Both the position numbers and the translations under genes were made by a program. Positions 38,042 through 46,650 of a stretch of 55,345 nucleotides of DNA are shown in pieces. Origin of the DNA: Candidatus Acutalibacter stercorigallinarum (GTDB lineage: Bacteria > Bacillota > Clostridia > Oscillospirales > Acutalibacteraceae); the NCBI GenBank assembly GCA_019112625.1, contig DXIW01000023.1, forward strand, positions 1 through 55,345. Reading direction: 5' to 3'. Each line of letters begins with the position of its first letter. Position 1 is the stretch's first letter. The notes beneath the pieces were generated by a model. It did not search any database, was not told the origin of the DNA, and was given only the letters and a program-made list of their open reading frames with translations.

Positions 38042-38463
38042 TTATCCCTGGAAACCGCCGTGGCGGCCCTTTACCTTCATCCGGGCGGCGGCCCGGGCCA
38101 GGGTGAACTGGGCCATGCGGTACTCCTGGATGCTCCGCTTTTGGAGCATGGCCTCCTTGGCGGCGTCGGCCTCCCGGCGGGCCCGGTTCAGGTCGATCTC
38201 CTCCGGGCGCTCGGCGGAGTCCACCAAAATGAGGACCTCGCCGTTCTCCACCTTCACCAGGCCGGCGGACACGGCGGCCATCTGTTCCGGCTCACCAGGG
38301 AGCTGGTAGCGCATCATCCCAGGGATGATGGCGGTGATCATGTTCCGGTGGTGGGCCATGATGCCGTACATGCCGGTGATGGTGGGCAGCACCAGGGAGA
38401 CGCACTCCCCCTCGTAGAAGGGGCGGTCGGCGGCCAAAAACTGCACGGGGAATGTGGCTGGCA

Positions 38464-38464
<1 letters not shown>
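38042..38464 (-). CDS. atpC: ATP synthase F1 epsilon subunit
   Basis: A 140-residue subunit of the central stalk that couples and regulates rotation. The N-terminal beta-sandwich (PVQFLAADRPFYEGECVSLVLPTITGMYGIMAHH) and a C-terminal helical hairpin (IDLNRARREADAAKEAML) are clear. The start ATG overlaps the atpD stop in TGATG, with GGGAGGGG upstream. Last gene of the atp operon, before the terminator. Confidence 0.95.
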
Positions 38465-40777: not shown

Positions 40778-42550
40778 TTACCCGTTATCCTTTCCCGAGG
40801 CCGCTTCCTGCCCGGCGCTCAAAAAGTCTTTGGCCATCCGCAGGATCTGGTCCTGGTCCTCCTGGGACAGCTTGCCAGACCGGTCGATGCGGCGGCACAG
40901 GTCGGCGGCCTTCTCCTCCATGTGGGCCAAAAAGTCCCGGCGGAACTGGTCCACCTCCTGGACTTTCAGGTCCTGGAGGGTGTGGTGCAGCGCCACCACC
41001 AGCAGGATGACCTGCTCGTGCTGCTTCATGGGGTGGTACTGGGGCTGGCGCAGCAGGCGCATCAGCCCCTGGCCGTAGGCCAGCTGCCGGCGGGTCAGGT
41101 CGTCCAGGTCGCTGGAGAACTGGGTGAACACCTCCATCTCCCGGTACTGGGCCAGGTCCAGACGGATGGCGCCAGCGGCGGTCTTCATGGCCTTGGTCTG
41201 GGCGTCGCCGCCCACACGGGACACGGACAGGCCCACGTTTACGGCGGGGCGCTGGCCGGAGAAGAACAGGTCCTCCTCCAGGAAAATCTGGCCGTCGGTG
41301 ATGGAGATGATGTTGGTGGGGATGTAGGCAGACACGTCGCCGGCCTGGGTCTCCACGATGGGCAGGGCGGTCATGCTGCCGCCGCCCATCTCCTCGGACA
41401 GCCGGGCGGAGCGCTCCAGCAGCCGGGAGTGGAGGTAGAACACGTCCCCGGGGTAGGCCTCGCGGCCGGGAGAGCGCTCCAGCAGGAGGCTCAGGGCCCG
41501 GTAGGCGATGGCGTGCTTGGTCAGGTCGTCGTAGACGATGAGCACGTCCTTGCCCTGGTACATGAAGTATTCGCCGATGGCGCAGCCCGCGTAGGGGGCG
41601 ATGTACTGCATGGTGGCCGCGTCGCTGGCCGAGGCGCTGACCACGATGGAGTAGGACAGGGCGTCGAACTTCTCCAGGGTCTCCACCAGCTCCGCCACGG
41701 AGCTGGCCTTTTGGCCGATGGCCACGTAGATGCAGATGACATCCTTGCCCTTCTGGTTCAGGATGGTGTCCAGGGCGATGGCGGTCTTACCGGTCTGGCG
41801 GTCGCCGATGATGAGCTCCCGCTGGCCACGGCCGATGGGGAACATGGTGTCGATGGCAAGCAAACCGGTCTCCATGGGGGTATCCACGGGCTGGCGGTGG
41901 ATGATGTCCGGGGCCGGGGCCTCGATGGGACGGTACTCCGCGGCCTGAATCTCCCCTTTGCCGTCGATGGGCTCGCCCAGGGCGTTGACCACCCGGCCCA
42001 GGAAGGCCTCCCCCACGGGGACGCCGGCGGTCTTGCCGGTGCGGTGGACGATGCTGCCCTCTACGATCTCCTCGTCGTCGCCGAAGAGCACGCAGCCGAT
42101 CTCATCCCGCTTCAGCTCCTGCACCATGCCCTTTACCCCGGAGGAGAACTGGAGGATCTCCCCGTAGGAGGCGTTTTTCAGGCCGGAGACCGTGGCGATT
42201 TCGTCGCCCACGGCCACCACCTGGCCCACCTCTTCCGGGGTGGCCTCGGGCACCCAGTTTTCCACCGCCTCTTTTACCAGGGGGATGATGGCGTCCCGGC
42301 GGGGGTGCAGCTGGTCCAGCTGGCGCTTAAATTGGCGCAGCCGGCCCTCTAAGGTCCAATCGTAAACATCGGTGCCCACCTGCAGCAGGAAACCGTCGGC
42401 CAGCTGGGGGTCCTCCTCCCACACCAGCTTTACGTCATCCCCGTACTTCCCGGCGATGAACCGCTCCAGGCGCTCCCGGCTGGGGGCGGCGGGGGCGGCG
42501 GCGCTGCGCAGCAGGGCTTTTTTCTCAGTTTTCTTCTTGTTGCTGTCCAT
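40778..42550 (-). CDS. atpA: ATP synthase F1 alpha subunit with fused delta-like N-terminal domain
   Basis: A 590-residue chain, about 85 longer than usual. Residues about 85-585 are a standard alpha subunit: [17 protein letters not shown], Walker [41 protein letters not shown] and [18 protein letters not shown]. Residues about 1-24 are a Lys/Ala-rich linker. Residues about 24-80 read like the C-terminal domain of the delta subunit: a helix [20 protein letters not shown], then G-x-L-L-Q-V-G and D-x-T-L-E-G-R-L-x-x-F, matching the G-V/I-x-x-x-G...D-x-S-V/I-x-G-R-L pattern of AtpH. No separate atpH is present, because atpF overlaps this start by 26 bases. The delta N-terminal helical bundle is absent. 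Confidence 0.93.
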
Positions 42551-43034
42551 CCGGAGCCTCCCTTTCCACCAGATCCAAGAATTGCTCGTAGGGGTCCCCC
42601 TGGCTCTTCAGGGCGATCCGCTCCGCCGCGGTGACCACCAGGCCGGTGAGCTCCTTGGAGGCCTTGGCCAGCATGGCGTCGTGCTCCTGCTGGGTGGCGG
42701 CATGGGCCTGGGCCAGGATGGTGTCGGCCTGCTTTTTCGTCTGGGCCAGCTCCTGCTCCCGCAGCTGGTCCAGCTCCTTCTGGGCCGCCTGCTTCCGCCC
42801 GGCGATCTCCTGGTCGATGTCCGCCAGCTTTTCCTTATAGTCCTGCACCATCTGCCGGGCTTCCTGGCGGTCCTTTTCGGCCTCCTGGGCCATTTGGGCG
42901 TAGTGGTCCTCCCGCTTTTTCATAAAGTCCTTCACCGGCCGGTAGAGCAGGAGGTACAGCCCCCCAGCCAGCAGGACGAAGTTGAACAGGTGCAGCAGAA
43001 TCTGCTGCCAGTCGATATTCAGTGGGATATTCAT
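42525..43034 (-). CDS. atpF: ATP synthase F0 b subunit
   Basis: A 169-residue stator subunit: one N-terminal membrane helix ([20 protein letters not shown]), then [14 protein letters not shown] and a long charged coiled coil, ending in [26 protein letters not shown] and a Gln/Glu tail. Normal length, so no delta domain is fused here. Its last 26 bases overlap the start of atpA, leaving no room for an atpH gene. Confidence 0.94.
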
Positions 43035-43053: not shown

Positions 43054-43431
43054 TTACAAGACGAAGATGACCAGGATGACCACCAGCAGGGCGTAGATAA
43101 TGGCCGTTTCGATAAACACCATGGTCAGCATCAGGGAGGTGCGGATCTTGCTCTCCATCTCAGGCTGGCGGGAGATGCCGTCGGCGGCCTTGCCGCCCAC
43201 CATGCCCATGCCGATGGCGCCGCCGGCAGCGGCCAGGCCGATGGCCATGCCCACGGCCAGGGCCTTGGTCCCGGCAGTGCTGCCGCCGTTGTCGGCGGGG
43301 GCGGCCTCGGTGGTCTGGGCGGTATCCGCAGGGGCGGCGGTGGTGTCGGCGGCGGCCAGGGCGGGCACCGCCAGCAGGGTCATCAGGATGGCGATCACGG
43401 TCAGGATCACGAGAAATCTCACTTTTTTCAT
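43054..43431 (-). CDS. atpE: ATP synthase F0 c subunit with signal-like N-terminal extension
   Basis: A 125-residue proteolipid; c subunits are normally 70-90. Residues 1-27 are a signal-peptide-like helix ending VPALAAA, and 28-53 are an Ala/Thr/Pro/Asp-rich linker. The two canonical helices follow: 55-84 (GMAIGLAAAGGAIGMGMVGG) and 95-125, joined by the polar loop RQPE. The ion-binding carboxylate is Glu108 in FIETAIIYAL. The helix-1 Gln used by Na+-binding rings is Met75 here, which argues for protons, although the Glu-Thr pair keeps one Na+-type feature. GTGAGG lies upstream of the ATG. Confidence 0.92.
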   Translation of the reverse strand: MKKVRFLVILTVIAILMTLLAVPALAAADTTAAPADTAQTTEAAPADNGGSTAGTKALAVGMAIGLAAAGGAIGMGMVGGKAADGISRQPEMESKIRTSLMLTMVFIETAIIYALLVVILVIFVL

Positions 43432-45594: not shown

Positions 45595-45623
45595 TTGACA
45601 GCGATACAAGATGATATTATAAT
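45595..45623 (+). promoter_or_regulatory. Consensus promoter of the SPFH gene
   Basis: -35 TTGACA (45595-45600) and -10 TATAAT (45618-45623) with 17-base spacing: a perfect sigma-A consensus, the strongest in the window. Confidence 0.92.
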
Positions 45624-45660
45624 AATATCAAATCCACATCACGAAAAAGGAGTTGTAACC

Positions 45661-46650
45661 ATGGAAACTGGAGAGAAGATCGTCAATCGCTATACAGAAA
45701 AACCGGTGAAGGCCAAAAACGGCTTTGCCATGCTGGCCCTTATTCTGCTGCTGCTTTTGGGCAGCATCGCCGTGGCCGTCTGCGGGCCGGTGTTTGTCAG
45801 CTCTTCCAACGCGGGCCTGGCGGTGGCCATGGTGGTGCTGGGGATACTGGTGTTTATCTTCGACCTGTTCCTCATGGCGGGCTTGAAGATCCTGAACCCC
45901 AACGAGGCGCTGGTGTTCACCCTGTTCGGCAAGTACCACGGCACCCTGAAGGGGGATGGCTACTTCTGGGTCAACCCCTTCTGCGAGGGCATCAACCCCG
46001 GTGGGGCGCCCACCACCGTCACCATCAACGGCAGCACCTCTGTCAACTTCGGGGCCAAGAAGATCTCCCTGAAAACCATGACCCTGAACAATGAGAAGCA
46101 GACGGTAAACGATGAGCGGGGCAACCCCATCGTCATCGGCACCATCGTCATCTGGCGGATCGTAGACACCACCAAAGCCGTGTTCAACGTGCAGAACTAC
46201 CGGACCTTCCTGGGCACCCAGTGCGACTCCGCCACCCGGAACATCGCCCGGATGTACCCCTACGACCTGATGGACGACGACGACCAGGGGGAAAAGACAT
46301 TGCGGGGCAGCAGCCAGGAGATCGCCGACATGATGAAAAAGGACCTGCAGGACCGGGTGTCCATGGCCGGGCTGGAAATCCTGGAGGTGCGCATCACCCA
46401 CCTGTCCTACGCCCCGGAGATTGCCGCGGCCATGCTCCAGCGGCAGCAGGCGGAGGCCGTGGTGGCCGCCCGGAAGAAAATCGTGGAGGGCGCCGTGGGC
46501 ATGGTGGAGATGGCCCTGGACCAGCTGGGCAAAGACCAGGTGGTGGAACTGGACGAGGAGCGCAAGGCCGCCATGGTGTCGAACCTGCTGGTGGTGCTCT
46601 GCGGCAACAAGGACGCCCAGCCCATCGTCAACAGCGGGTCCATCTATTGA
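45661..46650 (+). CDS. SPFH (band 7) domain membrane protein
   Basis: A 329-residue protein with two N-terminal membrane helices ([42 protein letters not shown]) followed by an SPFH domain ([47 protein letters not shown]) and a helical oligomerisation region ([22 protein letters not shown]). Such stomatin-like proteins form membrane scaffolds. The ATG at 45661 has AAAAAGGAG upstream. A small ribbon-helix-helix gene follows after 48 bases, a pairing that probably forms one transcript. Confidence 0.93.

Follow-up and report, generated by a model that had tools for sequence, protein, structure and literature searches.

A delta C-terminal domain fused to the ATP synthase alpha subunit in Candidatus Acutalibacter stercorigallinarum and its relatives

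The atp operon and the fused domain

The window, a stretch of 55,345 nucleotides from Candidatus Acutalibacter stercorigallinarum (contig DXIW01000023.1), carries on its minus strand an F-type ATP synthase operon in the order atpB-atpE-atpF-atpA-atpG-atpD-atpC, that is, a-c-b-alpha-gamma-beta-epsilon (Table 1). The atpA frame, whose coordinates include the stop codon, begins with an ATG at 42550 preceded by GGAGG 6 nt 5' of it. This ATG lies inside atpF, giving a 26-nt overlap of the two genes. An earlier note on this DNA gave the correct position and reading frame of atpA and the correct order of the genes. Ahead of its two-helix core, subunit c has an N-terminal stretch resembling a signal peptide and a segment rich in Ala and Thr. 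A further gene in the window (45595-46650) resembles an SPFH/band-7 membrane protein, a label given by reading of the sequence alone.

Table 1 Features of the atp operon in the window
Feature	Coordinates	Strand	Basis
atpA, delta-CTD-alpha fusion, 590 aa	40778..42550	-	TIGR00962 740.5 bits; PF00213, PF02874, PF00006, PF00306 in order
delta/OSCP C-terminal domain, residues about 11-80	42311..42520	-	PF00213 positions 97-172 and predicted fold
Linker, residues 81-87	42290..42310	-	between model helices 67-79 and 88-98
alpha N-terminal helix, residues 88-98	42257..42289	-	model; aligned with N-terminal helix of ordinary alphas
atpF, subunit b, 169 aa; expected to pair with the fused CTD	42525..43034	-	PF00430 E 8.3e-15
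atpB, subunit a, 276 aa	43475..44305	-	PF00119 E 2.4e-13
atpE, subunit c, 125 aa, long N-terminal extension	43054..43431	-	PF00137 from residue 58
atpG, gamma, 304 aa	39861..40775	-	PF00231
atpD, beta, 466 aa	38464..39864	-	PF00006
atpC, epsilon, 140 aa, both domains kept	38042..38464	-	PF02823 and PF00401

The earlier note had proposed that alpha carries the C-terminal domain (CTD) of delta/OSCP, that the N-terminal bundle (NTD) of delta is gone and that the operon has no atpH, and each of these points is borne out. Searched alone, residues 1-90 match positions 97-172 of the Pfam OSCP profile (PF00213; E 5.7e-10, 40.0 bits, cut-off 22.3) and leave positions 1-96 unmatched. The remainder of the protein is an ordinary F1 alpha, its TIGR00962 score comparing with a cut-off of 484.45 bits. 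An AlphaFold2 model of residues 1-93 (mean pLDDT 87) folds as strand-helix-strand-strand-strand-helix, and in a Foldseek search of the PDB ranks 1-44 were all ATP synthase entries, rank 45 being unrelated. The OSCP score and these ranks rule out a chance match or a wrong domain. The alpha chain is thus confirmed to begin with the delta/OSCP CTD, which a short linker joins to the normal N-terminal helix of alpha; of delta, the protein has the C-terminal domain only.

The fused domain is under purifying selection. Among 103 close pairs of CTD-alpha fusions, which share species and are therefore not independent, no pair had omega >=1 in this domain. Constraint on it is weaker than on the alpha core, with a median omega of 0.212 vs 0.083.

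The OSCP profile found only the fused domain in the window's genome (70 contigs, 86% complete), with no second match at E<=10. The same holds at E<=0.01 for two genomes of the genus (G125, G217) and two of the family (G223, G135), all 99% complete. A profile of 18 delta NTDs was searched in 16 genomes. It had no match at E<=1 in G000, G217, G223, G135 or G169. A 24-position piece in a 656-aa frame of G125 (E 0.013) and short matches in G175 (0.03), G074 (0.05) and G098 (0.30) appear to be chance matches. Of the independent controls, G063 was found (6.7e-18) and G058, which has a full delta-alpha fusion, was a near miss (0.156); the remaining five positive genomes had supplied rows to the profile. 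A hidden NTD elsewhere was rejected on this search, with its one near miss among controls. The fragmented and incomplete assembly could suggest that the fusion is an assembly or annotation artefact, or that a separate atpH was missed. We consider this very improbable, as many assemblies made independently show the same fusion, some of them bearing the title of a named strain (e.g. L084, L100, L152), and the 99%-complete relatives have no other OSCP match at E<=0.01.

Internal initiation or proteolysis might also yield an alpha of ordinary length, so that the domain would sit on one of three alphas and the canonical stoichiometry would be kept. In 32 of 112 CTD-alpha rows, a start codon with a Shine-Dalgarno-like tetramer does lie close to the junction, and in the window GTG codons with such a tetramer occur at residues 111-112. 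However, ten control windows in the same genes gave 5-34 of 112, so that 32, although high, is in range and marks no clear excess of internal starts. ATG is the codon in only 4 of the 112 (controls 0-25), whereas the true start region scores 82, and the two GTGs of the window lie past the alpha N-terminal helix. We regard such a mixed population of alphas as very improbable.

Delta arrangements among relatives

The CTD-alpha layout is widespread in the class of the window and is also present beyond it. Across 250 genomes of the family, atpA was found in 73, giving 77 frames: 39 with a separate full delta, 6 full delta-alpha fusions, 11 with a separate CTD-only delta and 15 CTD-alpha fusions (in L072 and L073 the CTD is recognized by alignment only, an OSCP match at E<=0.01 being absent). 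The rest comprise 4 b'-CTD-alpha fusions, described below, 1 remnant extension and 1 frame cut by a contig end. A contig search confirmed 578 relatives. The best 80 include 76 CTD-alpha (L153 being broken by N bases and L127 ending at a contig end), 2 full delta-alpha and 2 separate-delta loci, but as these are the most similar relatives, 76 of 80 is not a frequency. The closest named relative among them is Lachnoclostridium sp. An181 (76% identity). In the class survey (393 genomes), fused frames occur, among the matches listed, in at least 18 family labels with at least one locus read in each (f1, f3, f7, f10, f13, f14, f16, f17, f18, f20, f26, f28, f40, f48, f50, f51, f85 and f86). In the phylum survey (279 genomes), CTD-alpha fusions outside the class were found in f130 (three genomes) and f186 (one).

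Some relatives carry other arrangements of delta. A free CTD without NTD (L032, L033, L034, L036, L039, L041, L043, L044, L045, L048, L052, L211, L212, L213) is encoded directly before an ordinary alpha in frames of 71-106 aa (157 in L033, whose start is unclear). Fusions of the full-length delta to alpha measure 670-692 aa (L063, L064, L065, L066, L067, L158, L162, L203, L204, L205); the source record of L162 is titled a complete genome (Lachnospiraceae bacterium GAM79), and L057 (785 aa) has the NTD twice. At L075 (6992-8608), a 539-aa alpha frame has nearly lost the delta CTD.

In a further form, b'-CTD-alpha, a membrane helix and about 120 b-like residues precede the CTD and then alpha, for a total of 741-757 aa. 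It was found in the family of the window at L035 (5386-7608), L038, L040 (5404-7632) and L042, and in f85 at L210 (5176-7446). Pfam ATP-synt_B, tested on three of these N-termini, scored 30.2 bits for L040 (cut-off 28), with L035 (23.0) and L210 (21.8) both below the cut-off. With a profile built from 168 b subunits, all five scored 15.7-31.3 bits; among 79-80 shuffles of each, the highest score was 4.7-7.5. These loci also have a separate b of about 139-148 aa that overlaps the alpha start, and the epsilon frame, where seen (L035, L038, L040, L042), spans just about 97-104 aa. Because F1 has three alphas, the fusion would place three b' arms on each F1 unless the protein is cleaved.

These arrangements, assigned by reading frames, were placed on a quick IQ-TREE tree of alpha without its extension (185 rows). 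Dropped beforehand were frames <430 aa and 23 loci, most of them duplicates or close copies of loci that were kept, among the 23 also the separate-delta rows L184, L187 and L193 cut at the locus end. Unordered parsimony gives 7 changes in NTD presence, and an irreversible model rooted on ordinary alpha gives 10 losses, or 8 when forks with <95% support are collapsed, counts that are approximate because several branches are long. The delta NTD thus appears to be lost repeatedly on this tree. Since free CTD-only deltas exist, this loss is more than a by-product of fusion; a full-length delta fused to alpha is found in 13 of the 185 rows.

The length of subunit c also varies among these forms. 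Counted as open frames whose starts are not mapped, long c frames (>=72 residues before the R-x-P-E/D loop) are found in 92 of 109 CTD-alpha rows. For separate-delta rows the count is 2 of 35 and for free-CTD rows 1 of 12; none of the 14 full delta-alpha and none of the 5 b'-CTD-alpha rows has one.

Engineered and natural systems of related layout

The earlier note knew of no described delta-alpha fusion and allowed that one might exist. One has been published: Ueno et al. (Nat Commun 2025, PMC12229609) describe an engineered fusion and name natural ones without a delta NTD (the Acidaminococcus fermentans operon; UniProt G4Q3K6 and A0A1I2C5T3). Natural cases were thus on record before that of the window, which is like them by that description. 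They argue that the delta NTD, on the pseudo-threefold axis, restricts F-ATPases to one stalk. In their Bacillus PS3 FoF1 deltaDeltaN-alpha, the delta NTD was deleted, the CTD fused to alpha and the epsilon CTD removed. This enzyme carries between one and three stalks, every one of them paired with an a subunit (a 2.2x and b 1.8x wild type, estimated by SDS-PAGE), and has an H+/ATP ratio of 5.8 vs 3.0. By cryo-EM, triple-stalk particles were very few, and the stalk count came to 1.26 per molecule, which the authors put down to losses in grid preparation. Protons per turn, they propose, equal (number of c) x (number of a). The earlier note had posed well the dilemma of three delta-like domains on each F1 or docking of only one; in the engineered enzyme up to three dock (PMC12229609).

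The window protein has the layout of the engineered chain (PDB 9jc1), with the delta NTD gone, the CTD on the alpha N-terminus and collinearity through the junction. With phmmer, its residues 31-566 align with residues 25-564 of 9jc1 across the junction, the window protein being 4 residues shorter between the alignment ends. With Foldseek, 9jc1_I, K and J take ranks 1-3 with 566-568 aligned columns, vs 469-508 for the rest of the 50 listed. The 50 rows listed by VIA-align for the whole model are all ordinary alphas, with 9jc1 absent, and are uninformative on the N-terminus. Unlike the engineered enzyme, which lacks the epsilon CTD, the window protein is natural and its epsilon complete.

Other systems share parts of this layout. 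Like the window protein, the delta/b Rosetta Stone fusion of Gordonia and mycobacteria (PMC5709465; PDB 7jg5) joins delta to a stator neighbour, but the partner is b rather than alpha, and the available part of PMC5709465 names no delta-alpha fusion. A mycobacterial b-delta fusion was rejected for the window, where PF00430 is the sole match of b over cut-off. N-type ATPases also lack a separate delta and have a predicted high H+/ATP ratio (PMC12229609). The window enzyme does not belong to them: its alpha scores 610.5 bits with TIGR03324 (cut-off 750.5), and its gene order differs from the N-type beta-epsilon-a-c-b-alpha-gamma (PMC5709465). The best PDB match of the window b is the b subunit of Chloroflexus aurantiacus (E 4.4e-13). 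The entries for that ATP synthase (9itj, 9itk, 9itl, 9its, 9itt, 9itu) hold on average 1 gamma and 3 alpha chains each, together with 2 delta and 4 b, and these chain counts suggest a natural two-stalk F-ATPase, although its delta, unlike that of the window, is a separate chain of 157 residues. We found no paper on these two-delta structures in the open-licence literature.

Across the same literature, whose scope leaves most subscription papers and preprints outside, PMC12229609 was the only description of a delta-alpha fusion, and we found none that deals with how widely the fusion occurs, with b'-CTD-alpha or with free CTDs. New here are the spread of the fusion and the relatives that extend the kind, the kind itself being already known.

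Stalk number and gearing

ATP synthases have long been drawn with a single stator. By analogy with the engineered PS3 enzyme, a multi-stalk state is most likely for the enzyme of the window, and we think it fairly probable that it is an F1Fo ATPase with delta trimmed to a b-binding CTD on alpha, on which one to three b2-a stalks can assemble. Delta, reduced to this tethered CTD, would display three docking domains per F1, and the three-fold axis would be left empty, with nothing to restrict docking to one. An empty axis would in turn permit one, two or three b2 stalks, and each of them would have its own a subunit. Under the rule of PMC12229609, protons per turn would then rise with the number of a subunits. 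Such a low-gear motor would make ATP at low proton motive force or, in reverse, export more protons per ATP, which would suit a fermenter with Rnf as ion pump. The rnfC gene scored over cut-off in all 5 genomes tested. It does not discriminate, since Rnf is also found alongside ordinary ATP synthases.

It is possible, though we lean against it, that the enzyme has a single stalk. The domain would be present on all three alphas and one b2-a unit assembled, the other two domains staying empty through a limited supply of a and b or a lack of space around the rotor; fusion would then serve as a stable attachment of delta. The faster evolution of the fused domain relative to the alpha core fits this reading. 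So do the full delta-alpha fusions, whose NTDs cannot all sit on the axis, so that idle copies seem to be tolerated; this counts against multiple stalks, as does the near-lost CTD of L075, though a canonical operon is present in the same genome. The low stalk occupancy in cryo-EM also favours a single stalk and, with the missing epsilon CTD, weakens the analogy with the engineered enzyme (PMC12229609). On the other hand, the part that the same paper names as limiting stalk number, the NTD, is the one repeatedly lost, free CTD-only deltas exist among relatives, and SDS-PAGE and the H+/ATP ratio show about two a and two b2 for each gamma in the engineered enzyme. The b-like arm on alpha itself in some relatives is also counted in favour of the multi-stalk reading, as are the chain counts of the Chloroflexus aurantiacus entries and the selection on the fused domain.

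Extended to the relatives, the multi-stalk reading becomes a broader proposal, which we hold with even confidence for and against. Among anaerobic Clostridia, multi-stalk, low-gear F1Fo enzymes would form a common natural class that arose many times through loss of the delta NTD. The enzyme of the window would have two or three b2-a stators, and at L035, L038, L040, L042 and L210 three arms would be genetically mandatory, each alpha bringing its own membrane-anchored arm. If the fused domain acts as in the engineered enzyme, many gut bacteria would have two or three stators and an ion/ATP ratio doubled or tripled, and estimates of ATP yield in anaerobic fermentation would change. The natural series, from full delta through free CTD, full delta-alpha and CTD-alpha to b'-CTD-alpha, makes the one-stalk limit testable in natural enzymes.

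Finally, some genomes encode two F-ATPase operons of different architecture: G272 (L199, L200), G258 (L219, L220), G066 (L075, L077), G104, G087 and G148. A canonical enzyme and a fused or reduced one occur together at the loci read in G272, G258 and G066 and, from frame lists, in G405, G438, G543, G572, G325, G422, G468, G584, G087 and G104. Such pairs would fit two gears in one genome.
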